From the NCBI GenBank assembly GCA_902556905.1, contig CACDYK010000006.1, positions 1 to 64,000 on the forward strand: a stretch of 64,000 bases of DNA, given 5' to 3'. A program made the translations under genes and the position numbers. The notes beneath the pieces are model-generated. The model did not search any database and had not been told where the DNA came from. It saw only the letters and a program-made list of their open reading frames with translations. Below, piece after piece: positions 2,478 through 20,851 of this stretch. This stretch comes from an uncultured Pelagibacteraceae bacterium (lineage in GTDB: Bacteria > Pseudomonadota > Alphaproteobacteria > Pelagibacterales > Pelagibacteraceae). Numbering within the stretch: position 1 is the first letter of the stretch; each line of letters opens with the position of its first letter.

Positions 2478-3878
2478 ATGAAAAAATCGGCATTTCTTTT
2501 TTTTAAAGGACTAGGATTATTATTTGCAATTCTATGTGGAATAGGAACTGCTTTTCTTGGTTGGTATGATGGCGCAGATTGGATGAATATTGCTACCTAC
2601 TCTATTGCTGTAACTGGATTAATATTGTGGGGATGGTACCATTTTTCTGTAAGATGGATTAATGAAGATTTAAAACAAAATATCTTCACTAAATTTCCTA
2701 AAGAAGAAACTATAAAAGACGAAGAAGATGAAGAAAATTTCTTCTTCAAAAATATTAGAGAAAATAAATGGAAAACAATTGCTTTCCTTGGGGTAATTCT
2801 AATCTTTATTTTTGTATCTTTTGTAGCAGATGATTTCTTTTCAGGAAGAACCCTAGTTTCATTTTTGATCTTTTTAGTATTTGTGATTTTTATGGGTGTT
2901 ATCAGCAGATACATAAAAGGTTCAAAAAGTGTTTTTGTAGGTATCTCTGTTTTGATTGGGTTGTTTATTATTGGATCTCTAACCATACCTGGTTTCTTAA
3001 CGACCATGAACATGAAATCAATGTTGGTTTTTGCATCATTTTTAGGACTAGCTACTATTGGTCAGACTTTTGTTGCACTTTTAGGGGGTTTAGATCTTTC
3101 AATTCCATTTGTTATTGGCTCTATGAATGTTGGTTTAATGTCGTTAATTTCAAAAGGAGTTCCACCTTGGCTTGCTTGCATAGTTATTTTGCTGCTAGGT
3201 GCTTTGATAGGATTTGTTAATGGCACTTTAAGTTTTAGACTTCAAGGACAAGCATTAATTTTAACTTTGGGTGTTGGGTTTTTTGTTAAAGGAGGGGTTC
3301 AAATATTAGTTTCTATGGGTACTTTTTCAGCTGGTACTGTTTTTGGTGTTGTTCCAGATTGGATGCAAAATTTAGCTTCTATGGGTGGAAAAACTATTGG
3401 TCTTCCAATACCTCCTGTTATCATTATTTGGATAGTAGCAAGTATATTAGTTATCGTTGCACTTAGGTTAACAAAATGGGGAAGGCATTTATATGCTTTA
3501 GGTGGAAGTAGATTGTCATCATCAAGACTTTCTATTTCTGAAAGAGGATACTGGGTTGGTGCTTATGTTATTAGTGGATTTTTCTCAGCTTTAACTGGAA
3601 TTCTACTTCTTGGTTGGAGTGGTGGAGGATATGTGGGTGCTGGAGATATTTATTTATTCACAACTATAGCTGCAGTGGTTATTGGTGGAACTTCATTATT
3701 AGGAGGTTCTGGAGGTTATGGGTTAAGTGTTATTGGAGTATTTATATTGCAAATAATAACAACTGTATTAATTGGATGGGGTTTAAGTTGGGAAGCACAA
3801 CAATTTATTTTGGGATTACTTATTATTCCAATGGTTGCCCTGTACGCAAGATCCCCACATATAAGAAGCCAGATATAA
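2478..3878 (+). CDS. RbsC-like ABC transporter permease with N-terminal membrane extension
   Basis: GGLDLSIPFVIGSMNVG and GGTSLLGGSGGYGLSVIGVF motifs; directly abuts the preceding permease. Confidence 0.85.
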   Translation: MKKSAFLFFKGLGLLFAILCGIGTAFLGWYDGADWMNIATYSIAVTGLILWGWYHFSVRWINEDLKQNIFTKFPKEETIKDEEDEENFFFKNIRENKWKTIAFLGVILIFIFVSFVADDFFSGRTLVSFLIFLVFVIFMGVISRYIKGSKSVFVGISVLIGLFIIGSLTIPGFLTTMNMKSMLVFASFLGLATIGQTFVALLGGLDLSIPFVIGSMNVGLMSLISKGVPPWLACIVILLLGALIGFVNGTLSFRLQGQALILTLGVGFFVKGGVQILVSMGTFSAGTVFGVVPDWMQNLASMGGKTIGLPIPPVIIIWIVASILVIVALRLTKWGRHLYALGGSRLSSSRLSISERGYWVGAYVISGFFSALTGILLLGWSGGGYVGAGDIYLFTTIAAVVIGGTSLLGGSGGYGLSVIGVFILQIITTVLIGWGLSWEAQQFILGLLIIPMVALYARSPHIRSQI

Positions 3879-3890
3879 AGGAGAAGATTT

Positions 3891-4610
3891 ATGATAGAAT
3901 TAAATTGCGACATGGGTGAAAGTTTTGGGATCTATAAAGCGGGTAATGATGAAGAGATAATGCCATTAATAGATATAGCAAATGTTGCCTGTGGTTTTCA
4001 TGCTTCTGATCCTAATCATATGAGAAAAACTGTGGCACTTGCAAAAAAACATGGGGTAAAAGTTGGGGCTCACCCTTCTTTTCCTGATCTGCAGGGATTT
4101 GGAAGAAGAGAAATAAAAATGCCAAGGCAAGATATAAAAAGTATGGTTATGTATCAGGTAGGTGCTTTAAAATCATTTTTAGATGAACAAGATATGCCTT
4201 TGAACCATATCAAACCTCATGGATCATTATATGTTATGGCTGCGAAAGATGAAAATATGGCTAACGCAATTGCAGATGCTGTTGAAACTTTTAATGTGAG
4301 TATTTTTGGAATGGCAAATACTTGTCATGAAAAGATTTATAAAGATGAAAGAGGTTTAAATTTTATAGCAGAATTTTACGCTGACCTAGATTATGATAAA
4401 GAAGGAAACCTAGTTGTAGCTAAAGGAAAAAATGCAAACTACGATAGTAAAATTGCAGCCAAACGTGTCATGCGCGCATTAAAAGAAAAAAAAGTTACCA
4501 ATACTATTGGTAAAGATATAAATGTTGGTTGTGATACAATTTGCGTTCATTCAGATACACCTAATGCAGTTGAAATAATTACAGGTATTAAATCAGCCCT
4601 TAGTAAATGA
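3891..4610 (+). CDS. pxpA: LamB/YcsF family protein, 5-oxoprolinase subunit A-like
   Basis: MIELNCDMGESFG, ANVACGFHASDP, KVGAHPSFPDLQGFGRR, NHIKPHGSLY are hallmark PxpA/YcsF motifs. Confidence 0.92.
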   Translation: MIELNCDMGESFGIYKAGNDEEIMPLIDIANVACGFHASDPNHMRKTVALAKKHGVKVGAHPSFPDLQGFGRREIKMPRQDIKSMVMYQVGALKSFLDEQDMPLNHIKPHGSLYVMAAKDENMANAIADAVETFNVSIFGMANTCHEKIYKDERGLNFIAEFYADLDYDKEGNLVVAKGKNANYDSKIAAKRVMRALKEKKVTNTIGKDINVGCDTICVHSDTPNAVEIITGIKSALSK

Positions 4611-7060
4611 AAAGAATTTTAATAGCTAACAGAGGCGAAATAGCTTGTAGAATTATTAGAAGTTGTAAAAAACTAGGTTTACAGTCAATTGCCGTATATT
4701 CAGATATAGACAAAAACAGCAAACACGTTAGAGAAGCTGACGAGTCAATCCACATAGGGGGGTCAAAAGCACAAGAAAGTTACCTTCTCGCAGAAAAAAT
4801 CATTGAGGTTGCTAAAAAATTAAATGCTGATGCTATTCATCCAGGATATGGATTTATGGCTGAAAATGCTGAATTTGCCCAGAATGTAATAGACTCAGGA
4901 ATAATTTGGATAGGCCCAAAACCAAGCACTATCATATCAATGGGTAATAAAGATGTAGCAAGAGATTTGGCTATAAAAAATAACCTTCCTATTTGCCCAG
5001 GGTTAAAAGATGAAGATTTAAAAAAAGATGATCTAGAAAAAAAATGTAATGAAATTGGTTATCCAATTTTAATAAAGGCAAGTGCTGGTGGTGGTGGAAT
5101 TGGAATGCGAATAGCAAACAATTATGAGGAATTAATTCAATCAATTGAAAAAACTAAAAATTTAGCAAAAAAAGCATTTGGTAATAGTGATATTTTTTTA
5201 GAAAAATTCATCTCAAATGCAAGGCATATAGAAATTCAAGTTTTTGGTCTTGGTGAAAGAAAAGCTTTGCATTTCTACGAAAGAGATTGCTCAATACAAA
5301 GACGTTTTCAAAAAATTATAGAAGAAAGTCCTGCTCCTGAGATTAAAGACTCAATAATTAATGAGATGGCAGAAAGCGCAGTAAATTTTGTTACAAATCA
5401 AAATTATGAAGGAGCCGGTACAATAGAATTTATATACGACATTGATAATAAAAAATTTTATTTTTTAGAAATGAATACCAGAATTCAAGTAGAGCACCCT
5501 GTTACAGAGATGATCACAAATTCTGATTTAGTTTCAATGCAAATCCAATTTGCATTGAACCTAGATCTAAAATCTATAGAACAAAATAAAATTAATAAAT
5601 CAGGACATGCTATTGAATGTAGATTATATGCTGAAGACCCAGCTAAAAACTTTCTTCCTTCTCCAGGTAAAATTACTAAATTAAATCTTCCTAATACTGG
5701 TTTTGCAGACATTAGACTTGATATAGGTGTGGATGAAGGAGATGAGATATCTTTTTATTATGATCCAATGATTGCAAAAATTATTTCAAAAAGTGAAAAT
5801 AGAATAGAAAGTATAAATAATATGATTCATTATTTAAGTGAATTAAAAATAGAAGGAATTAATACAAATAAATCTTTTTTAATTTCAGTTTTAAAAAATG
5901 AGTCTTTTGAAAAAGCAACTTATAATACTAAATTTATAGAAAATAATTTATCTTTATTTACAAAAGAATCAGAAACTTTAAAAAAAGATATAAGTAAAAC
6001 TATAAATGAAGAAAATATTGTTCAAAAATATACTGATAAAGATGTTGAGGCTTTTAAAAAAATAACAGCACAATCTCCTAATAAAAAACACTCAGACCAC
6101 TACACTGAAAATGATTTCAAAGCATTTAAGAATATTTTAAATAAAAAAAATGATAATCAAAAAAAAGGTTCTATTAAAAATATAATAGGAAAAGTATATG
6201 AAGAACCAGTATTTAAACCAGGGGGTGACAAATATATGATCATTGAATTTGGTAATCTTATGGATCTAGAAATTAACTTTACAGCACAAAACTTAGCTAA
6301 AGCTATTCTTGATAATAAAATCAAAGGTATTTATGAAACTGCTCCATGTTTTGCTTCGATGCTTATTCATTATAATCCTGATGAAATAAAATTTAATGAT
6401 TTAAAAAATGAGATGAAGTCACTTATTAAGTCATTAGGTCCAACTGATGATATTGAGATTAATAGTAGAATTTTCTCATTTCCCACTGTTTATTTAGATA
6501 AATGGACAAAAGAATGTATTGAAGATTATTCAAGCAAAATTGCAGAAAAAACTCCTGATCCTGATTTTATTGTAGAGCTGAATAAACTTGAAAATACTGA
6601 ACAATTTGTAAGGGTTCATTCTGGAACTGAATATTGGGTTTCGGCACTAGGTTTTTGGCCAGGTCTTCCATTTATGATGCCTTTAGACCCTAGATGTAAA
6701 TTAACTGCACCAAAATATAATCCGCCAAGAACCTGGACCCCAAAAGGTGCTGTAGGAATGGGTGGATCTTCAACTTCAATATATCCTGATAGATTGCCTG
6801 GTGGTTATCAAATTTTTGGAATAATACCTGTTCCTATTTGGGATACTGAGAAAAGTTTTTCTGTATTCGAAGAAAGTATCTGTCTTTTTAAACCTGGTGA
6901 CAGAGTAAAATTTGTACCCACAAGCTACGAAGAATTTGATCATGTTTCGAATAAGGTAAAGGACAAATCCTATGATTATAATATTATTGACTATCAAAAA
7001 TTTTCAGTAAAAAATTATAAAAATTGGTTAACAACAATTGATAAAACAAAAAGATTTTAA
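4607..7060 (+). CDS. Fusion of biotin carboxylase (N-terminal) and PxpB/KipI-like allophanate hydrolase subunit 1 (C-terminal)
   Basis: N-term: MKRILIANRGEIACRI, HPGYGFMAENAEFA, ASAGGGGIGMR, EMNTRIQVEHPVTE. C-term: GFWPGLPFMMPLDPRC...PRTWTPKGAVGMGGSSTSIYPDRLPGGYQIFG. ATGA overlap with pxpA. Confidence 0.88.
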   Translation: MKRILIANRGEIACRIIRSCKKLGLQSIAVYSDIDKNSKHVREADESIHIGGSKAQESYLLAEKIIEVAKKLNADAIHPGYGFMAENAEFAQNVIDSGIIWIGPKPSTIISMGNKDVARDLAIKNNLPICPGLKDEDLKKDDLEKKCNEIGYPILIKASAGGGGIGMRIANNYEELIQSIEKTKNLAKKAFGNSDIFLEKFISNARHIEIQVFGLGERKALHFYERDCSIQRRFQKIIEESPAPEIKDSIINEMAESAVNFVTNQNYEGAGTIEFIYDIDNKKFYFLEMNTRIQVEHPVTEMITNSDLVSMQIQFALNLDLKSIEQNKINKSGHAIECRLYAEDPAKNFLPSPGKITKLNLPNTGFADIRLDIGVDEGDEISFYYDPMIAKIISKSENRIESINNMIHYLSELKIEGINTNKSFLISVLKNESFEKATYNTKFIENNLSLFTKESETLKKDISKTINEENIVQKYTDKDVEAFKKITAQSPNKKHSDHYTENDFKAFKNILNKKNDNQKKGSIKNIIGKVYEEPVFKPGGDKYMIIEFGNLMDLEINFTAQNLAKAILDNKIKGIYETAPCFASMLIHYNPDEIKFNDLKNEMKSLIKSLGPTDDIEINSRIFSFPTVYLDKWTKECIEDYSSKIAEKTPDPDFIVELNKLENTEQFVRVHSGTEYWVSALGFWPGLPFMMPLDPRCKLTAPKYNPPRTWTPKGAVGMGGSSTSIYPDRLPGGYQIFGIIPVPIWDTEKSFSVFEESICLFKPGDRVKFVPTSYEEFDHVSNKVKDKSYDYNIIDYQKFSVKNYKNWLTTIDKTKRF

Positions 7061-7065
7061 CTTTT

Positions 7066-8190
7066 ATGGTTCAGGTAATTAAAAAAGGTTTAGAAACATC
7101 AGTCCAAGATTATCCTGGAAGAATTGGAACTTTAAATCAAGGATTTCCAGCCTCAGGTCCAATGGATAGTTGGTCTTTTAGACTTGCAAATATATTGGTT
7201 GGAAATAAGCCTGGTGACGCAGCACTAGAGTGTCAATTTATGGGGCCTACTCTTAAATTTATTGATGATAGAACAATAGCTATTACAGGTGCAGACATGT
7301 CTCCAAAAATAGATGGTAAAAGTGTTCCTTTATGGGAGAGTATTGAAGTTAAAGCAAATCAAGTTTTAGAATTGGAATTTGCCACAATAGGTGCAAGATC
7401 ATATATTGCTTTTGCTGGAGGAATTACTAGTGAACCTTGGCTTGGATCGAAATCTACATTTCATAAAGCTGGGGTAGGCGGAATTGATGGCAAAGCTATT
7501 GAAAATAATCAAATTCTGCCACTAGGAAACAATAAAAAAATTCAGTTTAGAAAGATAAAAAAAAGTTCAATACCCGAAATCTCTAAAGATAAAAATTGGT
7601 CTATAGAAGTTGTTTTAGGTCCCAACGATGACTGGATAGATAACAAGGGTCATGAGATTTTTTTTAACTCTAAATGGAAACTTCAAGCAAAAAGTGATCG
7701 GACAGGGTATAGATTAGATGGACCTAAACTAACTTTCACTGATAAGGCTACAAACAAAAGCCTTGAAAATGGTTCGGAACCTTCAAATATTATTGACCAG
7801 GGCTATCCTGCAGGAGCAATTAATCTTGCAGGTCAAACCCCAATTATTCTTGTTAATGATGGACCAAGCATGGGTGGTTTTATTAACCCCTATACTGTGC
7901 CATCAGCAGCTTTTTGGAAATTAGGACAAGCTAAACCAGGAGATACTCTCAATTTTATAGAAGTTTCAGTTGAAAAAGCTCAAACATTAAGAGCTGAACA
8001 GTCAATCATTTGTAGCGAAGAAAGCCTTATGTCTTTTAATAAGAATGAAACTATCAAAAATGAAAAAAACAAACAATTAGGCCCAATAAAGATAATAGAT
8101 TTTGATAAAAATAAGACAGAAGAGAGAAAAAGACTAAAATTGATGGAAAAAAAAGGCATGAAAAATATGAAAATTCGGTTTTTTAATTAA
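7066..8190 (+). CDS. pxpC: Biotin-dependent carboxyltransferase family protein (PxpC/KipA, allophanate hydrolase subunit 2)
   Basis: VQDYPGRIGTLNQGFPASGPMDSWSFRLANILVGN, GADMSPKIDG, QGYPAGAINLAGQTPIILVNDGPSMGG. Confidence 0.9.
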   Translation: MVQVIKKGLETSVQDYPGRIGTLNQGFPASGPMDSWSFRLANILVGNKPGDAALECQFMGPTLKFIDDRTIAITGADMSPKIDGKSVPLWESIEVKANQVLELEFATIGARSYIAFAGGITSEPWLGSKSTFHKAGVGGIDGKAIENNQILPLGNNKKIQFRKIKKSSIPEISKDKNWSIEVVLGPNDDWIDNKGHEIFFNSKWKLQAKSDRTGYRLDGPKLTFTDKATNKSLENGSEPSNIIDQGYPAGAINLAGQTPIILVNDGPSMGGFINPYTVPSAAFWKLGQAKPGDTLNFIEVSVEKAQTLRAEQSIICSEESLMSFNKNETIKNEKNKQLGPIKIIDFDKNKTEERKRLKLMEKKGMKNMKIRFFN

Positions 8191-8679: not shown

Positions 8680-9516
8680 TTAATCGTAATAAAACATTGG
8701 AGCTTTTTTCCAATCTAACCATGTAACTGGGTCATGTCCCCAAACTACTTTAGCATTATAATCTTTGGCAACTTTTCTTAATTTTTTAACAGAGTCAGCC
8801 GCATCTGAAGCAGAAGCAACAAGTCCAGGCAGACATTTATCACACCAATGATCTCCTGTATAACATGCGTCTCCAGTAAATAACATGTGTCCAGTTTTTG
8901 GTAAATTTACAAGAACCGATTGATGACCAGGAGTATGTCCAGGAGTAAATATTATTTTAATAACACCATCTCCAAAGACATCATAAAAATCTGTTTTTCT
9001 TCCCTGTAAAAATTTCCATCTTATATTTGGTTTATCAAAATCTGCTCTTACATAAGCTGGTTGTGAAAACCAGTCTGGATTGAATGCATAATCGTATTCT
9101 ACTCTTTGTGTAATATGTGTTGCATTAGGAAAGTGACCAATTGCTCCTGAATGATCAAGATGTAAGTGAGTTTGAATAACATATTTAACATCCTCTGGGT
9201 TTGTGTTTACAGATTTAACTACTTCTTTGCACCACTCCGAAGCTTTCATCACAGGATCATAAGCCTCAACTACGTTTCCCCAATGTTTGTGTTTGTCTAG
9301 AGCTGCCTCAATTGGCATTCCTCCATCAATAATAACATCTCCTTCAGGATGTTTAATTAAAAACCAAGGTACAGGAATTTCATAAGCTTCTTCACCTTGA
9401 TTCATCTTTATGAATTTCAATTTAGTTTTTATAGAACCAGTTTGAAACATATATAGTTTAATTCCACTATTAAACTTTGTTGTTTTTTCAAAAAAGTCAT
9501 CAGAAATATTATTCAT
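8680..9516 (-). CDS. MBL-fold metallohydrolase (N-acyl homoserine lactonase family-like)
   Basis: QTHLHLDHSGAIGHFP, FTPGHTPGHQSV, FTGDACYTGDHW metal-binding motifs. Confidence 0.85.
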   Translation of the reverse strand: MNNISDDFFEKTTKFNSGIKLYMFQTGSIKTKLKFIKMNQGEEAYEIPVPWFLIKHPEGDVIIDGGMPIEAALDKHKHWGNVVEAYDPVMKASEWCKEVVKSVNTNPEDVKYVIQTHLHLDHSGAIGHFPNATHITQRVEYDYAFNPDWFSQPAYVRADFDKPNIRWKFLQGRKTDFYDVFGDGVIKIIFTPGHTPGHQSVLVNLPKTGHMLFTGDACYTGDHWCDKCLPGLVASASDAADSVKKLRKVAKDYNAKVVWGHDPVTWLDWKKAPMFYYD

Positions 9517-9524
9517 AATTTATT

Positions 9525-10691
9525 CTACCAGGCTGCCTCATATATGTTAAGAGCGTCATTTTCAGTCAGTTCTCTTGGGTTATTAACTAATAAACGAGTT
9601 TGTTTCATTGCATCTGATGCCATTTTTTTACATGCCTCTTTTGGAATATTTACCTCTCTTAATCTTTGAGGAAGTCCAATTTTTTGTGATAAACTCTCTA
9701 ATCGATCAATAAATTCTTTGCATACTGCTTGGCTTCCCTTTTCAGTGTTAATATCTTGGAAAACAAATGGGGCTAATTCAGCATAATTTTTTGTTGTTTT
9801 GCTATCTACACTGTTAAATCTTAAAACGTATGGTAGAACTAAAGAGTTTGACAATCCATGAGACACATGAAAAGTTCCTCCAATCGGATAGGCAAGAGCA
9901 TGGACTGCTGCAACAGGAGAATTAGCAAATGCTTTCCCAGCTAACATTGCTCCAATTAACATGTTGCCTCTAGCCTCAATATTCGAACCATCAAATACAG
10001 CTTTTTCTATTGAGCCCGACAAAAGTTTTAGTGCTTCGATAGCTAACATTTTTGAAATTAGATTATTATTTTTGTTTGATGAAGTATAACCCTCTATAGC
10101 ATGAACCATAGCGTCAATTCCTGTAGCTGCAGTTGTGTGTGCTGGTAATCCAATTGTTAAATCTGGATCTAAAATTGCAATATCAGGTAAAATTATTGGC
10201 GAAGAAACTCCTTTCTTTTCTTCTTCTCCAACTGTGATGATAGATATAGGGGTTACCTCCGAGCCTGTTCCAGCAGTAGTCGGTATTAAAATTAATGGTA
10301 ATCTTGGACCTTTAGCATTTGAAACACCCCAGGCGTCTTCAATATTTTCATTTGAACCTAAAATTAAAGAAGTTAATTTAGCTACATCCATTGAAGATCC
10401 TCCCCCAAATCCAATAACACCTGTAGCATTAATTTTTTTTCCAACTTCTATAGAGTGTAGAAGTGTTTTAATTGAAGGATCTGCTTCTACATCTTGAAAA
10501 ACTTCAACTATTGATGAATATTTATTTAGTTCAGTTAGAGTTGGTTCAGTTAAATTTAAAGACATCAACCCTTTATCAGTTATAAATAAAACATTTGGTC
10601 CCAATTTTTTTGAAATTTCTTCAGCACATATTTTAGACATTCCACTTCCAAATCTAATTCCTGAAGTAGTATTAAATGTAAAATTATTCAT
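9525..10691 (-). CDS. Iron-containing alcohol dehydrogenase
   Basis: GFGGGSSMDVAK, PTTAGTGSEVTP, GIDAMVHAIEGYTS, HALAYPIGGTFHVSHGLSN. Confidence 0.93.
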   Translation of the reverse strand: MNNFTFNTTSGIRFGSGMSKICAEEISKKLGPNVLFITDKGLMSLNLTEPTLTELNKYSSIVEVFQDVEADPSIKTLLHSIEVGKKINATGVIGFGGGSSMDVAKLTSLILGSNENIEDAWGVSNAKGPRLPLILIPTTAGTGSEVTPISIITVGEEEKKGVSSPIILPDIAILDPDLTIGLPAHTTAATGIDAMVHAIEGYTSSNKNNNLISKMLAIEALKLLSGSIEKAVFDGSNIEARGNMLIGAMLAGKAFANSPVAAVHALAYPIGGTFHVSHGLSNSLVLPYVLRFNSVDSKTTKNYAELAPFVFQDINTEKGSQAVCKEFIDRLESLSQKIGLPQRLREVNIPKEACKKMASDAMKQTRLLVNNPRELTENDALNIYEAAW

Positions 10692-10702
10692 AATCCTAAT
10701 TC

Positions 10703-12769
10703 CTAAACGTAATAAACATAAAAGATTATTGAAAATATAGCTAGACCAATTAATATTAAGATCCAGCCATAGCCAGTTCCTAAATTATCTAAATAATTTT
10801 TTTCTCCAGAAACTTCATCTGGATGTTTATGAAGATCACCAGACTGTATTGGTTTATTTGGTAAAGTTGATAAATCCATTTTACTTGCTAAAAACCAAAT
10901 CAAACCAATTCCAAAAAACCACCATATTAATTGATATCCCCATAATGAAGGTATCTTTAAAATCCAAGATTCATATCCCGCATTTGGAGCACCAAAAAAA
11001 TTATTTCCAAGAACTTGTCCTGGACCTACTCCAAAGAATAACCATATAAGAGCAATAACATATGCAAATGATCTTAATTTTGTTCTACTCGGATGAAGGC
11101 CCATGTGTTCGTTTAAAAAATCATGAAATTTTTGACGATAATCTCTATCATTATCTACTTTTGCTATTGATGAAAACGCTGAGACTGAAAAACAAATAAA
11201 TACATTGAATAATAAGCCCCAAACACCTGAATGAATAGTCAATGGCCATCTTCCCCACGGTAATCTATTTCCTGAAATTTGCTGACCAATAGTTTCTGTT
11301 AAAATAACAATTATTATTCCAATTATTATACCAGATATAGCAGCTCCTCTTGTTATCCATGGAAACCAGACAAGACCAAGTAGAACAATTAAAAATTGAA
11401 ATGCTATAGCAATTGAAATACCACTAAAAATAATCATAGCAGGTTTAGCAAATGTAGCTAGATAAAGTGAGGCCAGAAACATTAACATCATAATTATACG
11501 AGCTGCTCTTCGCTCTTTCTCCCAGTTCGAGTTCTTATCTACGTAAGCTTTATAAAAATCTCTAGTAACGATGCTACCTGAGGTCATTAAAAGGGCAGCT
11601 GCTGTAGACTGAAGTGCAGCAACTAATCCAACAGCCAATAAACCAGTTAACCATAAGGCATGTTTGTCCATTAAACCGATAATATGATAAACAATTGATG
11701 AATGATCTTTACTTGAAACTTCTGGTAAAAGCTTATTAACGAAAAGACCATTACTATTAATTTCAGCACTAGCCCCCAATAAAATTGCTCCTATTCCTTG
11801 AAAAGTTGTAAATATAAATAATAATAAACCAACAATAACTGCAGATCCCCATATTTGATAATAAGAAAAAGTTTTAGGGTGTTTTGCTGTATAGCTTAAC
11901 ATTGAAAATGATGGTGACAGAACTATTCCCATAAAAGAAATTGTAAATGTAAAAATCATCATCGCAGTCCAAGGACCTCCAATTGCTTCATTTTTTCCTA
12001 AACCAGCTACCCATTGTATAACACCTGGTAATGCGAAATAACCATTATAGTCACCTCCTCCATAACCATTTGTATTTCCCCAAAAACTAATTTTTGTATT
12101 TGCTATTTTTGCTAATGATTTACCAAAAGTTTCTATATCTCCTATAAAGGAATAAGTGATTAATCCTAAAATAATTATTGTTAAAAAATAAAGCCAAGAT
12201 TGAACTACACCTACACTGAAAATAGATTTAAAACCTCCTCTTGTTACATAGAATAATACAATGATTGAAATTACCCACATTCCTAATTCTCTAGAAACAT
12301 ACTCACCAGTTAATGTATTTATAAGATAACCTGTTGCTCCAAATAAAACAGCAAGTAAGGGTATTGCGAAAAAAAAAGTTACTAAAACAGAAATAATTCT
12401 AATGGTATCACTTTTATAGTAATCATAATACATTTCACCAGGAGTAATGTATCCAAATTTTCTGCTTAGCATCCATTGTCTTTTAAAAAAAAATATACTC
12501 CCTAAAGGAACAGTTATAGCAATAAAAGCCGTACCAACATATTGAAAGCCATCATGAAAGATAAGGCTGGTTTGAGAAATTACAGTTAAGCCTGCAAACG
12601 TTGCGGCTGTTGCTGCAAAGAAAAAAACCCATGAAGAAATACTTCTATTTGCTAGATAATAATTTTCTGGATTATCAGAATTATACCTTGATCCTCTAAC
12701 ACCCCAAAAAAAACAATAGGCAGCATATAATAATATGAAGATAAATAACCAAACTGATTTTTCAGACAT
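10703..12769 (-). CDS. Sodium:solute symporter (SSS family) transporter
   Basis: Multi-TM protein. The listed ORF starts at 12901, but the likely start is the internal Met (MSEKSVWLFIFILLYAAYCFFWG; CAT at 12767-12769); AAATAATFAGLTVISQ, ALQSTAAALLMTSGSIVTRDFYK. Confidence 0.85.
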   Translation of the reverse strand: MSEKSVWLFIFILLYAAYCFFWGVRGSRYNSDNPENYYLANRSISSWVFFFAATAATFAGLTVISQTSLIFHDGFQYVGTAFIAITVPLGSIFFFKRQWMLSRKFGYITPGEMYYDYYKSDTIRIISVLVTFFFAIPLLAVLFGATGYLINTLTGEYVSRELGMWVISIIVLFYVTRGGFKSIFSVGVVQSWLYFLTIIILGLITYSFIGDIETFGKSLAKIANTKISFWGNTNGYGGGDYNGYFALPGVIQWVAGLGKNEAIGGPWTAMMIFTFTISFMGIVLSPSFSMLSYTAKHPKTFSYYQIWGSAVIVGLLLFIFTTFQGIGAILLGASAEINSNGLFVNKLLPEVSSKDHSSIVYHIIGLMDKHALWLTGLLAVGLVAALQSTAAALLMTSGSIVTRDFYKAYVDKNSNWEKERRAARIIMMLMFLASLYLATFAKPAMIIFSGISIAIAFQFLIVLLGLVWFPWITRGAAISGIIIGIIIVILTETIGQQISGNRLPWGRWPLTIHSGVWGLLFNVFICFSVSAFSSIAKVDNDRDYRQKFHDFLNEHMGLHPSRTKLRSFAYVIALIWLFFGVGPGQVLGNNFFGAPNAGYESWILKIPSLWGYQLIWWFFGIGLIWFLASKMDLSTLPNKPIQSGDLHKHPDEVSGEKNYLDNLGTGYGWILILIGLAIFSIIFYVYYV

Positions 12770-12803
12770 ATGACTTGGCCATATCGTAGATCCTTTTGTT
12801 AGA

Positions 12804-13169
12804 TTAAGTGCAGCGTCTAGGTGCTGATTCACCTTTTTCTTTTTTAATTCTTTCAGCTTCTTCTTGGGCTTCTTTAATCGTAGAGTAAGCCTTATCTTCA
12901 AATATTATAAATGGTTTAGCTCTATCAGCATTCAATTGCGCAACACACCATTCTTTGTCAGGTTTAGTGCACATCACCATATACGCACCAGGTATAGGTC
13001 CATATTTTCGATTATTTAATGTAAAAAGACTTTTAGCCAATTCATTAAGTTTATCTTCATCTAATTTTCCCAAAGCATTTTTTTCTAAATCATTTGGTGG
13101 AGTTTCGTTATCTGATCCTAAAATACCTTTCCCACCTGTTCCTTCTGGTCTAGTAAATTGATTGCTCAT
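12804..13169 (-). CDS. Conserved-looking small hypothetical protein between DMFase-like and SSS transporter genes
   Basis: 121-aa soluble ORF starting at the stop of the upstream gene (13169). Confidence 0.65.
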   Translation of the reverse strand: MSNQFTRPEGTGGKGILGSDNETPPNDLEKNALGKLDEDKLNELAKSLFTLNNRKYGPIPGAYMVMCTKPDKEWCVAQLNADRAKPFIIFEDKAYSTIKEAQEEAERIKKEKGESAPRRCT

Positions 13170-15526
13170 TATGGTAAAGGTCCATCTTTTAAAAATCCTC
13201 TAATTGCATTTTCTAAAATTTTAGAGACATTATTATTGTAATTGTTGTAAGATAAGCTTCCACAGAAAGATAGAGATCCAGGTGCAAACAATGCGCCATC
13301 ATTTGGCGTTTTATAATAAATCATATCTGCTCTAACCATTGGATTTTCAGTACCCCCACCGTAATATCCTCTAACAGTAAAATGAATCTCTTCATTTACT
13401 TGCATCATTAAATTTGTATGATTTTCTGATCTTGCTAATAGATATGCATTATGAGGTGTTCCAAACTCTAAATCATACCTATCAAGCTCAAGTCCTGCTG
13501 CACCTCCACCTACTAAGCCAAAATCTCCTATTACTTCATCTTTTCCAACACCATCAAAAATCCAAGAACATTCAGGTCGTTCGCTATCAGGAGACCTTTT
13601 GTAATAAGAGCTAACATCAAATCCATATGCTGTAAAAGTTAATCCACATACTTTTGATGGTATTCTCCCTCGAGCTCTCCACATTCCACCATATTTTCCA
13701 TCAAAAGCATTATTGTATTCACCTGGATTTGCTGTCCATGCTCTAGTACCTGCTTCGCCTTTTCTAACTTCAATAATATTTGGATTATCAGGATGATATT
13801 CGCTAATCCAATAAAAACCATCTGAACCCAAGTATATCCATCTTCCACCATTAAGTTGGTACTGTTCATAAGCTGCTAGCATTTTTTCAGAACTATATTC
13901 AGGGTGCGAACCTGTTAAAACACATTTGTATCGATTTAATAATTCAACACCTTCCAAATGTAAGTCTTCATCAGTAACAACATCAAAATCTAAATTTTTT
14001 TCTTCCAACCAATCAGTCAAATGCAAATCTGCATTAAGTTGCCATAGAGATGGTGATAGCCAGTGTCTATATTTTGGTCTCATATTCAAAATAGGTCTTA
14101 GTCTCGATGAAATTGCTACACCACTACCGTCTGAATGTTGAGAATAAGTTGATAAACCATATTCTCTGTGTTCATTTAAATACAAATCTGAAGCTGACAT
14201 AACTGGTACTTTTCCAGCTAATAATTGAGCTACTACTGAATTTGTACCAAGGTTGTCATTTGAATAAGCTATGTAACTATTTGTTGGTAAAACAAATAAA
14301 AGATCTGAAGTAGTTTTGCCTTTGGGGGGTTTAATAACAAAAGGTATGAAGTCCTCTGTTTCAGCTGAATCTTCACCATTTATTCTTAATCTTGCTGCAT
14401 AAACTCCACTTCTAATTTTATCAGGCACTTTATATACAAAGTCTACATCCCATCTTGCATCATCAATATCATCATCATGAAAATGAATAGCTCCATATTC
14501 TTCTGGCTTGTGATGGAATACCATTTCATCTGCAGTCCAATTATACCCTGTCATAGCTCTGCATGGTAAATTTACAATAAAACCATTTAGATGATTTGAT
14601 GTCATATCAACAATTAAAGTTGATGCCATATTCTTTGTAATATTGGCATGAAAATCCCAAGCTCCTATAACTTCAGATCTTAATTCAGAAGTACATCCAC
14701 CAAAACCTCTAGCCAGAGACTCTATTTCTGATTTCGATAAAGCCTTTTTACTAAGTCTTGGTCTATCTATTTTGCCATTATAAGTTAATGTTTGCTCTGG
14801 CAATTCAACAGGGCTAGTTGCTTCTTTATAGTGTCCTCCAAAAATATGTCTTCCAGATCTATCATTTAATGCACAGGCAGCCATTAAAAAAGGAGCATCG
14901 TTTGCACGTGGTTTCAAATTACTTATAGATTCTACATAAGCAGTTGTTTCATCTGCTGGATGTAACATCGACATACCTAGTCCACCATTGGTAGGTGTAA
15001 CACAAGGTTCTTGGTATAACTTTAATTTTCCTGTTTCAGCATCATATGTAGCTGCTACTAAGTACCAAACTTTTCTCATTAATTTCTTTTCACTTGAAAC
15101 TGAAGTTGTTTGCCCTCCTCCGTCTCCAATCATTACTGATAAACAGCTATTTTCATCTATGAATAACCCATAACCGCTTTGAGTTTTTTCATTCCACTTT
15201 GTTAAAATTCCTTGCTTACCTTTGTCTGGAGTTGTCGGAAATATATATGCCTGTAAAGTAAAGCTTGTTGTGTTTAGTCTCTCGTCTTGAGGAATTACAA
15301 CATAAGAACCACCATGAATTTTTTGATTTTTTCCCTGATAATTTCTATTACATTCAGCGCCTATTTCTTCTTCTTTATATCCAGGTCCATCAGGATTTGT
15401 ATCTCCATGAATTAATCTTACAATTTGAACCTCATAATTTTCATTTTTTTCAGAGTTGACCATAAATTTAATCTCTTCACCAGGAAAAGAAGTGTATTTA
15501 TCACTATAACCTGTAATTCTTAACAT
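13169..15526 (-). CDS. dmfA2: N,N-dimethylformamidase-like large (beta) subunit
   Basis: 785 aa with LamG-like region (INTTSFTLQAYIFPTTPDKGKQGILTKWNE) and DMFase-type C-terminal domain; VLPTNSYIAYSND and TGSHPEYSS motifs; preceded by a DmfA1-like ORF. Confidence 0.85.
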   Translation of the reverse strand: MLRITGYSDKYTSFPGEEIKFMVNSEKNENYEVQIVRLIHGDTNPDGPGYKEEEIGAECNRNYQGKNQKIHGGSYVVIPQDERLNTTSFTLQAYIFPTTPDKGKQGILTKWNEKTQSGYGLFIDENSCLSVMIGDGGGQTTSVSSEKKLMRKVWYLVAATYDAETGKLKLYQEPCVTPTNGGLGMSMLHPADETTAYVESISNLKPRANDAPFLMAACALNDRSGRHIFGGHYKEATSPVELPEQTLTYNGKIDRPRLSKKALSKSEIESLARGFGGCTSELRSEVIGAWDFHANITKNMASTLIVDMTSNHLNGFIVNLPCRAMTGYNWTADEMVFHHKPEEYGAIHFHDDDIDDARWDVDFVYKVPDKIRSGVYAARLRINGEDSAETEDFIPFVIKPPKGKTTSDLLFVLPTNSYIAYSNDNLGTNSVVAQLLAGKVPVMSASDLYLNEHREYGLSTYSQHSDGSGVAISSRLRPILNMRPKYRHWLSPSLWQLNADLHLTDWLEEKNLDFDVVTDEDLHLEGVELLNRYKCVLTGSHPEYSSEKMLAAYEQYQLNGGRWIYLGSDGFYWISEYHPDNPNIIEVRKGEAGTRAWTANPGEYNNAFDGKYGGMWRARGRIPSKVCGLTFTAYGFDVSSYYKRSPDSERPECSWIFDGVGKDEVIGDFGLVGGGAAGLELDRYDLEFGTPHNAYLLARSENHTNLMMQVNEEIHFTVRGYYGGGTENPMVRADMIYYKTPNDGALFAPGSLSFCGSLSYNNYNNNVSKILENAIRGFLKDGPLP

Positions 15527-15548: not shown

Positions 15549-15968
15549 TCATTGTCCATGTCTTTCTAAAAGATCTAAAATTCTTTTTAAAAAAATTGCA
15601 TGTTCGGCAGCTTCTTCAGAAGAAAAAGACTCTTCTAAAATTTCAACAGGATCTCCTCTTACACCAGTAACTATTCCTATTCTGTAATCTTCAAAATCTT
15701 TTTTACATACTGTTACATATTTTTTGATTGCCATTGGTTGTCTTCTAAGTTTATCTAAAACAATTTGAAGTTCTTTGCTATGTTCAACCATTGGCTGACC
15801 TTTATGAGGTTGGGCGGCTCTGCCAACAGGAGTTGCTCTGTGTTCTTCTATTAATTTGTTTCTCATTTTTTCATCTCTTAATAGTGGTAATACATATTTT
15901 TCAGTAATAAAGTCATCAGTGCTTGTATGACCAAGATTAAGTTGAACTCCTGTTTTATCTTTTTCCAT
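15549..15968 (-). CDS. dmfA1: N,N-dimethylformamidase-like small (alpha) subunit
   Basis: EEHRATPVGRAAQPHKG...LRRQPMAIKKYV...FEDYRIGIVTG...EESFSSEEAAEHAIFLKRI matches the recalled pattern of the Paracoccus DmfA1 C-terminal region. Confidence 0.7.
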   Translation of the reverse strand: MEKDKTGVQLNLGHTSTDDFITEKYVLPLLRDEKMRNKLIEEHRATPVGRAAQPHKGQPMVEHSKELQIVLDKLRRQPMAIKKYVTVCKKDFEDYRIGIVTGVRGDPVEILEESFSSEEAAEHAIFLKRILDLLERHGQ

Positions 15969-15988: not shown

Positions 15989-16843
15989 TTACTTATTGGT
16001 CCTTTCTTGGATTATTTTCAGAGCTTCTATTAAATAAACTCTAAATAACTCATGATTTTCACTCATTGGAAAATGCCCTATATCAGGCATTTCAATATAA
16101 ACTCCACCTTTAATTTGTCTTGCTGTATTTTCAGTAGCTTCAGGTGGTGTTAAATAATCATAAGTTCCAGTCATCATTATTACTGGACATTTATGACCAT
16201 CAATATTCTTCAATTCATTTCTTAAGTCATGATCAACGGAATAAAAATATAAATCACCTTTAAATGCCTCAGAGCCCTGAGTGTAATAATGCCATGTCAA
16301 CCATCTATCTTTTTCAGGTGATTGAGGTGCCATTAAATCCCACGTACCACTTCCACAAACTTGAGCTGCATTTGCATGTGGATGTCTCCACCAATCTAAA
16401 TAGAAACCTGGCGCATGATCTGCTGCTTCAACTGGAATAACGGCTCTAAATTTATTAGGATGACGAAGGGCTAATTGCAACGCTACATTTCCTCCAAAAG
16501 AAGACCCCATAAAAATAGGATTTTTTAAATCTAAAGCTTCACATAATTTAATTATAAAATTGCAATAATGTTCTGCAGTTAGTTTATATTCTTCTTTCCA
16601 AAATTCCTTATTATGTGGAGGGTCTGATTTACCATGTCTAGGTAAGTCATATGCAATTACATTGTAATTTTTTATAATTTCTTCATCCTCAAGAAGTCCT
16701 CTCCATTGATGATTATGACATCCCGCAGTATGTTGACAGATTAATGGTATTCCTTTTCCATTTTGAAGATAAAAAACTTTATATTCACAATCATCTACTT
16801 CAATAGTAACATACCGCCCTACTACACTGTGATGCTTTACCAT
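15989..16843 (-). CDS. Alpha/beta hydrolase
   Basis: GSSFGGNVALQLALRHP nucleophile elbow; DIGHFPMSENHE catalytic His region. Confidence 0.88.
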   Translation of the reverse strand: MVKHHSVVGRYVTIEVDDCEYKVFYLQNGKGIPLICQHTAGCHNHQWRGLLEDEEIIKNYNVIAYDLPRHGKSDPPHNKEFWKEEYKLTAEHYCNFIIKLCEALDLKNPIFMGSSFGGNVALQLALRHPNKFRAVIPVEAADHAPGFYLDWWRHPHANAAQVCGSGTWDLMAPQSPEKDRWLTWHYYTQGSEAFKGDLYFYSVDHDLRNELKNIDGHKCPVIMMTGTYDYLTPPEATENTARQIKGGVYIEMPDIGHFPMSENHELFRVYLIEALKIIQERTNK

Positions 16844-16876: not shown

Positions 16877-17266
16877 TTATACGGGAACTCCTGATTTTCT
16901 TAATAGTTCAAATTGAACAGTAAAATTTCTCAAATTTTTCATTAAGATTAAGTGATTGCCCTCTATTTTTAAATCTTTTCTAAAACTTGCTGACCAAATA
17001 CCATGATACATTGGTTTAGGTATTGGCTGACTAAATTCTTTCCAAGTATTTGCGGAAGCCCTTAAAGCGAAATCATATGGGTCTAATGGGCCTGGGTTAG
17101 TATTAATATTTTTCACTTTTCCATCATGCATTTCAATAATGACTTTTGCTTTTTCCATATCAAACATAAATGAGCATGAATAATATTTTGCCATAGCAGC
17201 AATAGTTTCATCACTATTTGTAAGATCTTCGTACTTTTTTGCCCAATTATTCAAATCACTACTCAT
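16877..17266 (-). CDS. Small SCP2/sterol-carrier-like protein (tentative)
   Basis: 129 aa; FDMEKAKVIIEMHDGKVKNINTNPGPLDPYDFALRASANTWKEF resembles an SCP2-like fold pattern. Confidence 0.55.
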   Translation of the reverse strand: MSSDLNNWAKKYEDLTNSDETIAAMAKYYSCSFMFDMEKAKVIIEMHDGKVKNINTNPGPLDPYDFALRASANTWKEFSQPIPKPMYHGIWSASFRKDLKIEGNHLILMKNLRNFTVQFELLRKSGVPV

Positions 17267-17280
17267 ATATCTTTAACTCT

Positions 17281-19257
17281 TTATTTAGAACTTTTAGGTC
17301 CTTTAGTTGGATCATTATCAAAATTCATATGATAATCTTTTTTCGGATTTTCATAATCGCCTAAAATATTTCTAATATTACTTATTTCACCTGGTGCCAT
17401 TCCAATTTCTTTGAGTAAACTATCTAAGAAAGGTTGATGAGCTCTGTATCGCAATGCAGAACTAACTACATTATCTGCTAAATTACCACTTCTTGCAGAT
17501 CCACCTGTACCATCGGATGCTTCTCCACCGCCGCCTCCAGTGCTGGATGTTCCACTAAAGCCAGGCAAACCATTAACATCAACAATTTTAATATCTCCAA
17601 TGTTAGCCATTGGTTTAACACTTTCTCTAATGATTGACTCAATCTTATCAGCAAGTTTTAAACGTAATGCACTTCTTCTACTTGCGTCACTTCTAAGATT
17701 TTCAGCAGAGTTTAATGCTTCTTTACCTGCAGCATCTATCTCATATCTTAATTTTGCAGCCATAGTTGCATGTCTATCTTGCTCAGCTTTAGATGCAGCT
17801 GTTATTACATCCACTTTTTTAATCCCTTGTGCTTTTTCAACATATCTAGCTGAATTAGCTTTTTCTTCTGCTTCTATAGCTCTAGCTCTAGAATTTTCTT
17901 CTTCAGCTTTTGATTTTAAAACCTGTTTTGACTTATTAATCACTTCAAGATTTTTTTGATGCTCTTCAATACTTAATCTTTTAGCTTTTTCTATATCAAG
18001 AAGTCTCACTACTCTTTCAGATTCAATTCTATGTGAGTCTATATTTTTTTGTTGTTCAATCTTAGCATTTTTAACTTGTTGTTCTGAAACAATTTGAGCT
18101 TCTTCAGCCTCCTTTTGTCTTTCAGATTGTTCTTTTATAATAGCTGCTTTTTCTTGAGCTCGTTTGATATCAACTTGTCTTTGCTTTTCAAGTCTTGCAT
18201 ATTCACTTTCTTTATCAAGATTTAAAATTTTAACTTCTGTTTCTAAATCTTTTTGTCTTATTTCAAACGCTGAATTTTTCTCTAATTCATTTTGCTCTTT
18301 TCTTCTTTTTTCAATTTCTTCGATAAGTCTTGTTTCTGTTAATTTTCTTTCAACCTCGATAACTTGATTTTGTGAAATTTTTGCAACTTCAATTTGTTCT
18401 TGACTTCTTATTTCAGCTTCTTCTGCTTCTCTTTCTTTTTCAGCTTTTTCTTTTATTGTCTCTGTTTTTTCTTTAGCTCTTTGAATAGCTATTTCTCTTT
18501 CTTGTTGATACTTAGAAAACTCCTCATTTTTCTTAATTTCTAATTCTTTTTGAACTGTTTCTAAATTTTTATTTTCAATTGAAATTTTTGTATCTTGAGT
18601 AATATCATTTCTCTTTTTCTTTCTCTCTTCGATTTGCTCAGTCAATTGAGTTAAACCTTGAGAGTCAAAAGTATTAGCAGGATTAAACATTTCAATAGGT
18701 GCTTGATCAAGAGAGATAATAGAAACTGTTTCAAGTGCCAATCCAGTATGCCCTATTGATTCATTTGCAATGTTAGCAACTTGTTTAACAAATTGACCTC
18801 TATTTTCTTGTATTTCATCTAAGGTCATTTTTGCTGCAACTTCTCCAAGTGCGTCTGCAAAACGACCAGCAACAACCTCTTTTAAATGTTCTGGATCAAG
18901 AGTTCTGTTACCTAAAGTTTGTGCTGCAGTTGATACTGCTTTAGCCTCTGGTGGAACTTTCGTAAAAAATTCTGTAACAAGTTCTGCTCTCATTCTATCT
19001 TTTGTAATTAGAGATTTGTCACCTGCTCTCTTTATATTCAGACTAAGTGTACGCATTCCTACTTGTGTAATATTATGAATTATAGGTAAGACAAACGCAC
19101 CACCAGATATAACAACTTTTTCCCCTAACATACCTGTACGTACAAACGAAACTTCTTTTGATGATCGTCTGTATAACCAATGTAATAAGTAAACTATAAT
19201 CGCAATTGCAAGTGCGACTAAAATTATACCTGCTATTATGTCTGCTCCTTTAGTCAT
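17281..19257 (-). CDS. Flotillin/SPFH family protein (YqiK-like)
   Basis: N-terminal TM, SPFH domain (RTGMLGEKVVISGGAFVLPIIHNITQVGMRTLSLNI), then long Glu/Lys-rich coiled coil and Gly-rich C-terminus. Confidence 0.9.
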   Translation of the reverse strand: MTKGADIIAGIILVALAIAIIVYLLHWLYRRSSKEVSFVRTGMLGEKVVISGGAFVLPIIHNITQVGMRTLSLNIKRAGDKSLITKDRMRAELVTEFFTKVPPEAKAVSTAAQTLGNRTLDPEHLKEVVAGRFADALGEVAAKMTLDEIQENRGQFVKQVANIANESIGHTGLALETVSIISLDQAPIEMFNPANTFDSQGLTQLTEQIEERKKKRNDITQDTKISIENKNLETVQKELEIKKNEEFSKYQQEREIAIQRAKEKTETIKEKAEKEREAEEAEIRSQEQIEVAKISQNQVIEVERKLTETRLIEEIEKRRKEQNELEKNSAFEIRQKDLETEVKILNLDKESEYARLEKQRQVDIKRAQEKAAIIKEQSERQKEAEEAQIVSEQQVKNAKIEQQKNIDSHRIESERVVRLLDIEKAKRLSIEEHQKNLEVINKSKQVLKSKAEEENSRARAIEAEEKANSARYVEKAQGIKKVDVITAASKAEQDRHATMAAKLRYEIDAAGKEALNSAENLRSDASRRSALRLKLADKIESIIRESVKPMANIGDIKIVDVNGLPGFSGTSSTGGGGGEASDGTGGSARSGNLADNVVSSALRYRAHQPFLDSLLKEIGMAPGEISNIRNILGDYENPKKDYHMNFDNDPTKGPKSSK

Positions 19258-19270
19258 ATATTATTCCCCC

Positions 19271-19975
19271 TTAATTCTGATTACCTTTCTTTGTATCTTC
19301 TAAAGCTGCGCTATAAATTATCATTCCAAAAATGATTTTATTTAATACGTCAGCTAAATTATAAATTATGTTTAAACTGTTAATATTTGCTCCACCCGCA
19401 AGGTGCTCTATGAAGTATCCAATATGATATATTGAAAAACCTATTGTAATTATTAGTCTATTTGCAAAAAAAGCCATCTGAACTCGCTCATTATTGCAAG
19501 ATGCATTTGCTCGTCCAGCATCTCCCATATAAAGCTCTCCAATGATATAAAGCCATCCAACAATACCTACTAAGAACCCAAGAGTTACACTCATGTAACC
19601 ATAAGCCCCTAAAAGTTGTGCAATAACCCAAACTAACGTCCCAACTAGCAATCTCCAGAACATTCCACGCTTGATATCTGTAACTGACTTAAGCATTACA
19701 TAGAAAGTGAGTATTGTAAGTGGAAAAGTTAACAGCCAATCAATATATCTTAGTGCAGTTGGTGCTTGGCCATTCAAAACCCACAAATTTTTTGCATAGA
19801 AGTAATGAATCGATGACATTAATGCTATAACACCAACTAAATTCATTACTGTTCCCCATTTTGGAGACAGTCGTCCTCTTTCAAGAAAGAAAAATATTGC
19901 TGCACCTATCATCGCAACGGATATTAACCAAAAAGATCCGCCTACAACGTCTTGTGGAAGCAATAATTTATTCAT
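19271..19975 (-). CDS. Microbial rhodopsin, flotillin-associated, non-canonical DTT motif
   Basis: Seven-TM protein; RYIDWLLTFPLTILTFY in helix C and YNLADVLNKIIFG in helix G (retinal Lys213, Asp209); His57 in helix B (proteorhodopsin His75 equivalent). Confidence 0.95.
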   Translation of the reverse strand: MNKLLLPQDVVGGSFWLISVAMIGAAIFFFLERGRLSPKWGTVMNLVGVIALMSSIHYFYAKNLWVLNGQAPTALRYIDWLLTFPLTILTFYVMLKSVTDIKRGMFWRLLVGTLVWVIAQLLGAYGYMSVTLGFLVGIVGWLYIIGELYMGDAGRANASCNNERVQMAFFANRLIITIGFSIYHIGYFIEHLAGGANINSLNIIYNLADVLNKIIFGMIIYSAALEDTKKGNQN

Positions 19976-20212
19976 AAGCTAAAATTTTACCCTCTCAAGC
20001 TACATTTAAAGATAAAATGACGCGCAAAGCAAATTAAAAGTGTTTATATTTTAAATATATAATTTTTATATGTAGATGAAAACTTTTAGAGAAATTATAA
20101 AAAATTAAAAAAAAATTTTCAAATACAATCACTAGTAGAATTTTACAGAAAAATTTTTAGTTAAACCTTATTCATTCGATCATAACTTAATTATAGAATA
20201 TATTGCTTACTT

Positions 20213-20851
20213 ATGCTTTCGAAGGTCATAACTATTTCTCAACAAAAAGGGGGTACTGGAAAAACTACCCTTGCTGTTCATTTAGCTATGGCTTTTATAA
20301 AATATCATAATTTAAAAGTTGCAATTATTGATACTGATCCTCAAGGAAGTTTGGGTAAATGGTTCATGATACGAACAGAAAAAAAAGTTTCAAATGAAAA
20401 TCTAACTTTCAAAACTGCTAGTTTATGGGGAGCACAATATGAGTCAAAAACATTAAAAAATGATCATGATATCGTTATCATTGATACCCCACCAAAAATT
20501 GAGTCAGATGCAAGACCTTCTATTGAAGCAGCAGATTTAGTTTTAATACCTATGGCTGCTTCACATGTTGATTTTTGGGCAACAGGAGCAATAGTTGAAA
20601 TAGCCAAAAAAGCAAACAAGAAAATTTTAGCACAAATTAATAGATCAAGTAAAAGATCCAAGCTTATAGATAAAACAAAAGATTTTATAAAAAGTCTAGA
20701 TCTTGAGTCGACTCAAACAATTATAGGAAATAGACAAATCTATACTTCTTCAATGGGCGAAGGTAAAACTGCAGTAGAAAAACAAAGAAAAGGTAATGCT
20801 GTAGATGAGATTAAAAAACTTTCAGATCAAATTTTAAATCAATTAAATTAA
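20213..20851 (+). CDS. ParA/MinD-family ATPase (orphan, no adjacent parB)
   Basis: Deviant Walker A QQKGGTGKTTLAVHLA; IIDTDPQGSLGKW; VIIDTPP. Confidence 0.9.
   Translation: MLSKVITISQQKGGTGKTTLAVHLAMAFIKYHNLKVAIIDTDPQGSLGKWFMIRTEKKVSNENLTFKTASLWGAQYESKTLKNDHDIVIIDTPPKIESDARPSIEAADLVLIPMAASHVDFWATGAIVEIAKKANKKILAQINRSSKRSKLIDKTKDFIKSLDLESTQTIIGNRQIYTSSMGEGKTAVEKQRKGNAVDEIKKLSDQILNQLN

Follow-up and report, generated by a model that had tools for sequence, protein, structure and literature searches.

Genetic context of the rhodopsin locus

The window analyzed here, a 64,000-nt stretch of a contig from an uncultured Pelagibacteraceae bacterium, contains a rhodopsin gene beside a flotillin gene, and both lie within a larger set of transport and catabolic genes. 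The features are listed below in coordinate order.

153..2477 (+): ABC importer permease 1 (BPD_transp_2); adjoins the rhodopsin in other lineages
2478..3878 (+): ABC importer permease 2; immediately precedes the rhodopsin gene in the other lineages examined
3891..8190 (+): LamB/YcsF, biotin carboxylase with CT_C_D, CT_A_B (5-oxoprolinase/urea-carboxylase-like set)
8680..9516 (-): metallo-beta-lactamase-fold hydrolase
9525..10691 (-): iron-containing alcohol dehydrogenase
10703..12901 (-): sodium:solute symporter, listed from a TTG; the true start is probably further in
12804..13169 (-): conserved 121-aa protein, function unassigned; overlaps the listed start of the symporter ORF
13169..15526 (-): N,N-dimethylformamidase-beta-like protein (DMFA2_C)
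15549..15968 (-): conserved 139-aa protein, function unassigned
15989..16843 (-): alpha/beta hydrolase, 79-87% identical in distant loci of this type outside Pelagibacterales
16877..17266 (-): SCP2-like 129-aa protein (sub-threshold SCP2 match, E 0.016), kept across loci of this type
17281..19257 (-): flotillin (SPFH/Band_7 + Flot), 1,977 bp, separated from the rhodopsin stop by 13 nt
19271..19975 (-): flotillin-associated rhodopsin (FArhodopsin), 234 aa, DTT-T motif, K213 kept; pocket F84, W116, Q120, I138, F180, H184
19706..19708 (-): codon ACT, Thr90, at the proton-donor position by alignment and codon position
19976..20212: 237-nt spacer, followed by a divergent ParA-like gene

The rhodopsin ORF (19975-19271, minus strand) starts with ATG, has an intact reading frame, and matches Pfam Bac_rhodopsin (E 3.5e-27). 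The dimethylformamidase, alpha/beta hydrolase, SCP2-like protein, symporter, and carboxylases in the window are those of the conserved FAR gene cluster. The spacer contains a sigma-70-like match of 11/12 at 20122-20094 (minus strand), and such matches were no commoner than in shuffles.

Identity and phylogeny of the rhodopsin

The earlier note had described the protein as a non-canonical type-1 rhodopsin that has lost its proton donor (D79-T83-T90), and alignment with bacteriorhodopsin, proteorhodopsins, and relatives agrees, with H57, R76, D79, T83, T87, T90, D209, and K213 all falling where they had been placed by hand and codon 90 reading ACT at 19708-19706. No carboxylate occupies the donor position in the sequence alignment; a realignment that would supply one was rejected because the alignment is ungapped in helix C. 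In the same alignment, the donor position is Glu in 23/23 non-FArhodopsin sequences and T, I, L, or V in FArhodopsins, a change common to all of the latter; two rows labelled as proteorhodopsin or “other” (L094 and L096) were left out of the canonical 23, since both the tree and synteny make them FArhodopsins. Among the traits of pumping proteorhodopsins, K213, D79, and D209 are present and the helix C carboxylate donor is absent (Thr90). The motif is one of those that mark FArhodopsins (DTT, DTL, or DNI in place of DTE) and recurs in ∼45 Pelagibacterales loci whose products are 84-100% identical, and the proposed link to flotillin is borne out by the flotillin gene 13 nt downstream.

The gene is the Pelagibacterales (SAR11) FArhodopsin of the DTT-T type and is already known, since Pelagibacterales DTT rhodopsins with Thr at the tuning site, encoded alongside a canonical proteorhodopsin in the same genome, have been described (Haro-Moreno et al., 2023, PMC10308929; Olson et al., 2018, PMC5864233), and nothing of substance sets the window gene apart from them. 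The protein is 100% identical to that encoded by AG-390-L03 (L034), the reference cell of the former study, where the gene cluster is the same and the upstream spacer measures 236 nt rather than 237 nt; the flotillin also has the length given for SAR11 flotillins (PMC10308929), and the FArhodopsin of SCGC AAA288-N07 is 95% identical. Searches by sequence and by structure each grouped the protein with PsFAR, a Pseudothioglobus FArhodopsin (PDB 9r21; E 5e-87, TM-score 0.94, 56% identity). An AlphaFold model of the window protein reached a pLDDT of 88.6 with a 41-row alignment and 54 without one. No relatives of the protein were found in the viral contigs searched.

Phylogenetic analysis placed 18 FArhodopsins on one side of a well-supported branch (99/98), apart from the pumping proteorhodopsins, in a clade that takes in genes from large-genome Alphaproteobacteria. 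Canonical proteorhodopsins, including the paralog from the same genome (G000:C1:169577-170224, DTE-Q) and PDB 4jq6 and 7b03, have the fold, K213, D79, D209, R76, and H57 in common with the window protein; however, the latter lacks the donor Glu, has a filled pocket, belongs to another clade and gene neighborhood, and has no N-terminal leader, 22 N-terminal alignment columns of its own paralog being missing.

Conservation of the gene cluster

A core gene order of ABC ATPase, two BPD_transp_2 permeases, FArhodopsin, flotillin, SCP2-like 129-aa protein, and alpha/beta hydrolase is shared by divergent SAR11, HIMB59-type, freshwater, and large-genome Alphaproteobacteria. Flotillin is present in 51 of 52 related loci; the one locus without it is a fragment at a contig edge. 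Genome G945 and AG-390-L03 additionally encode a Peripla_BP_4 binding protein at the locus. The SCP2-like and hydrolase genes of G945 do not follow flotillin but are found a few kb away from the rhodopsin. The permeases of the window (plus strand, 153-3878) are ∼16 kb from the rhodopsin. Because the divergent SAR11 loci L071 and L072 have their permeases immediately 5′ of the rhodopsin gene, the main SAR11 layout appears to be a rearrangement of the permease-rhodopsin order.

Between distant lineages, the enzymes have diverged less than the rhodopsin: in comparisons of the window with L080 and L081, identities were 86-87% for the hydrolase, 80-83% for the SCP2-like protein, and 79-80% for the dimethylformamidase-like protein, versus 61-62% for the rhodopsin and 56% for flotillin. 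The cluster enzymes can also exist without a FArhodopsin, since two genomes (G592 and G1063) contain the SCP2-like and hydrolase genes and no rhodopsin. Three SAR11 genomes with the SCP2-like gene and no detected FArhodopsin (G175, G194, and G336) were discarded as counter-examples, as their contigs end within 0.1-0.8 kb on the flotillin/rhodopsin side.

Several database entries were anomalous. A Roseibacillus-labelled contig (L084, 1-81) starts with 27 SAR11-like FArhodopsin residues followed by unrelated sequence and is probably a chimeric assembly; the MAG casp150-mb.165 has both SAR11-type and HIMB59-type FArhodopsin loci (L038 and L077), probably from mixed binning; and on one MAG contig (L079, 1225-1925) the match of a SAR11 FArhodopsin to the window protein stops at residue 169, reflecting a frameshift or sequencing error.

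Retinal-pocket residues are replaced in a gene under purifying selection

The earlier note had not remarked on the pocket, in which five residues are replaced relative to canonical proteorhodopsins: V84 by Phe, M116 by Trp, G120 by Gln, W180 by Phe, and P184 by His. The open pocket of proteorhodopsins, with small residues at the positions of bacteriorhodopsin G122 and T90 and Pro at that of P186, is replaced by Q120, F84, and H184. Each of the five residues occurs in 42/42 distinct Pelagibacterales genes, and F84, Q120, F180, and H184 are each encoded by both synonymous codons. Lys213 is likewise kept in 42/42 and Asp79 in 41/42; the counterion Asp79 is Glu in the SAR11 FArhodopsins of L044 and L070. 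Summed over 17 positions, pocket side-chain volume is 2657-2831 Å3 in marine and freshwater FArhodopsins versus 2542-2615 Å3 in the 23 canonical sequences; a retinal clash in the window protein was judged by aligned positions and such volumes, not atoms.

The 42 Pelagibacterales genes are under strong purifying selection (median pairwise dN/dS 0.025, at a median dS of 1.6 with synonymous sites near saturation); this and the recurrence of the motif in the ∼45 loci argue that the observation is not due to chance. A decaying, functionless paralog might account for the loss of the donor and pocket, and the copy in G945 has even lost the Lys and counterion, but the dN/dS rules out a pseudogene, and the open frames and retention across lineages with very small genomes leave decay practically no probability.

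Other FArhodopsins fill the pocket differently, with H84/E120 in freshwater relatives and PsFAR, and F84/F116/W137 in family f32, which was called HIMB59-type from its DNI motif and context. PsFAR resembles the window protein in having bulky residues at 84 and 120, and the two differ in their identity (H84, E120, M116, W180, P184, and donor-position M in PsFAR versus F84, Q120, W116, F180, H184, and T). Wild-type PsFAR (PDB 9r21) and the H84V/E120G variant (9r23) differ exactly at positions 84 and 120, where the variant has the proteorhodopsin residues put back, and it was presumably made to restore retinal binding. The work behind PDB 9r21-9r23 reportedly found an absence of retinal binding.

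Published expression experiments on DTT-T rhodopsins as a type point the same way. In Escherichia coli, these proteins gave no visible pigment and no pH change, even when fitted with the leader from a shallow-water homolog, and a working pump given the DTT-T residues no longer pumped (PMC5864233); structure-based retinal clashes have been reported (PMC10308929). The failure of DTT-T rhodopsins in E. coli may, on the other hand, reflect misfolding. Loss of the donor is the lesser change, and the five pocket replacements come on top of it. Judging from the aligned residues, space for retinal has probably been lost and the window protein probably does not bind it; lacking the donor as well, it is most likely no light-driven pump.

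The earlier note had expected retinal binding and, the proton donor being absent, had considered slow pumping, sensing, or some other function likely, without settling on one. Its conclusion that this is not a normal proton pump holds, whereas the expectation of retinal binding finds no support and a slow pump or sensor appears quite improbable: Lys213, Asp79, Asp209, Arg76, and His57 are conserved, the host has blh and lycopene cyclase, with which it makes retinal for its ordinary proteorhodopsin, and a deep SAR11 DTQ-Q rhodopsin pumps without a donor carboxylate (PMC5864233), but the five pocket positions are filled, DTT-T proteins showed neither pigment nor pumping, clashes have been reported, and no transducer gene is seen among the annotated cluster genes of the window. 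For the bulky pocket, the negative expression results, and the reported clashes, a T90E substitution alone would probably not yield a pump.

The main loose end is Lys213, which, like Asp79, a retinal-free protein need not keep, and this counts against a retinal-independent reading; the two residues may form a salt bridge. A ligand other than retinal is conceivable, because in proteoopsin without retinal a bound decanoate forms a salt bridge with the retinal lysine (PMC11322631). A remodelled pocket holding a fatty acid, carotenoid fragment, or cluster substrate, and acting as chemical receptor or carrier, would explain the retained lysine and would suit both the different remodelling in each lineage and the SCP2-like and hydrolase neighbors, which handle organic molecules. 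We nevertheless consider it rather unlikely, given that no ligand has been observed, the pocket in SAR11 appears filled and not reshaped, and the G945 protein has no lysine.

Genomes in which FArhodopsin is the only rhodopsin

A canonical proteorhodopsin was always present in the SAR11 and HIMB59-type FArhodopsin genomes searched. This co-occurrence and the match of the FArhodopsin fold to solved oligomeric proteorhodopsins would fit the hypothesis of mixed oligomers, in which FArhodopsin tunes or assembles ordinary proteorhodopsin within flotillin microdomains (PMC10308929). However, FArhodopsin is the only rhodopsin in three genomes of family f67 (G581, G674, and G752; 96-97% complete) and in G945 (100%), all of which keep the FArhodopsin-flotillin pair; proteorhodopsin tuning is therefore not the shared function of FArhodopsins, and we regard mixed oligomers as an improbable explanation for the window protein.

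In these four genomes, the PF15461 (blh-type) retinal-forming dioxygenase was not found, and searches for lycopene cyclase gave short sub-threshold matches only, none convincing. The f67 genomes do encode RPE65-family carotenoid oxygenases, and their FArhodopsins (L155-L157), with V, I, or T at the donor position, have a pocket that is open and even enlarged (V84, M116, A120, A138, and G141); binding of retinal or a related ligand is thus conceivable for some FArhodopsins. None of the three retinal-pathway families (PF15461, RPE65-family, and lycopene cyclase) was found in G945, whose rhodopsin (L158, 1967-2701), located between an ABC permease and flotillin, carries K213R, D79G, D209E, and R76P; thus, a retinal Schiff base is not involved in at least one lineage. 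This gene has a long branch, and synteny contributes no less than the tree to its placement. Lysine-less rhodopsins are known (Rh-noK and freshwater FArhodopsins without Lys), in which the fold persists with no role that depends on retinal, some of them alongside a functional pump (PMC10308929); the window protein differs from them in keeping the lysine, which its relative in G945 lacks.

Proposed role in a nutrient-import module

With moderate confidence, we propose that the window protein is a retinal-independent seven-helix membrane component of a flotillin-organized import and catabolism module. It would be a proteorhodopsin derivative whose own side chains fill the retinal pocket, for which reason it would not pump in the light, and would be made together with flotillin as a single membrane unit. 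This unit would serve a cluster that imports and hydrolyzes an organic, perhaps amide-type, nitrogen compound through the ABC importer, SCP2-like protein, alpha/beta hydrolase, and dimethylformamidase-like enzyme. More tentatively, FArhodopsin may anchor, assemble, or gate the import module within a flotillin membrane patch. The role in import is suggested by gene context, and operon linkage does not prove joint function; the ∼16-kb distance between permeases and rhodopsin in the window also speaks against it. That FArhodopsins as a whole are not light proteins, and instead form the retinal-independent membrane part of a flotillin-organized ABC-importer/hydrolase system, with the rhodopsin fold repurposed for nutrient uptake, is possible though somewhat doubtful.

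These observations bear on what rhodopsins without retinal do, and SAR11 DTT-T rhodopsins have been reported as the commonest type of rhodopsin at depths beyond 200 m at Station ALOHA (PMC5864233). The newer part of the present analysis is the conserved membership in a nutrient-importer cluster, also in bacteria without a known retinal-forming dioxygenase; it adds a single FArhodopsin clade reaching large-genome Alphaproteobacteria and an operon of ABC importer, rhodopsin, and flotillin, with the SCP2-like and hydrolase genes beside it. The cluster comparison yields a hypothesis that is testable without light, namely that the protein works for the ABC importer and the associated hydrolases. 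Large-genome Alphaproteobacteria, of which some can perhaps be cultivated, have a related FArhodopsin as their sole rhodopsin. If the hypothesis is correct, a rhodopsin fold has been turned to nutrient uptake and has outlasted the loss of lysine and counterion in one lineage or more.

Beyond the spacer, divergent from the FArhodopsin gene, the window encodes a ParA-family ATPase (20213-20851; NF041546, above cut-off). It was not found in the available flanks of L071, L072, or non-SAR11 FArhodopsin loci, and is kept at this position in almost every SAR11 FArhodopsin locus of the main group (75-99%). By analogy with McdA-type ATPases, it could, speculatively, position flotillin patches.
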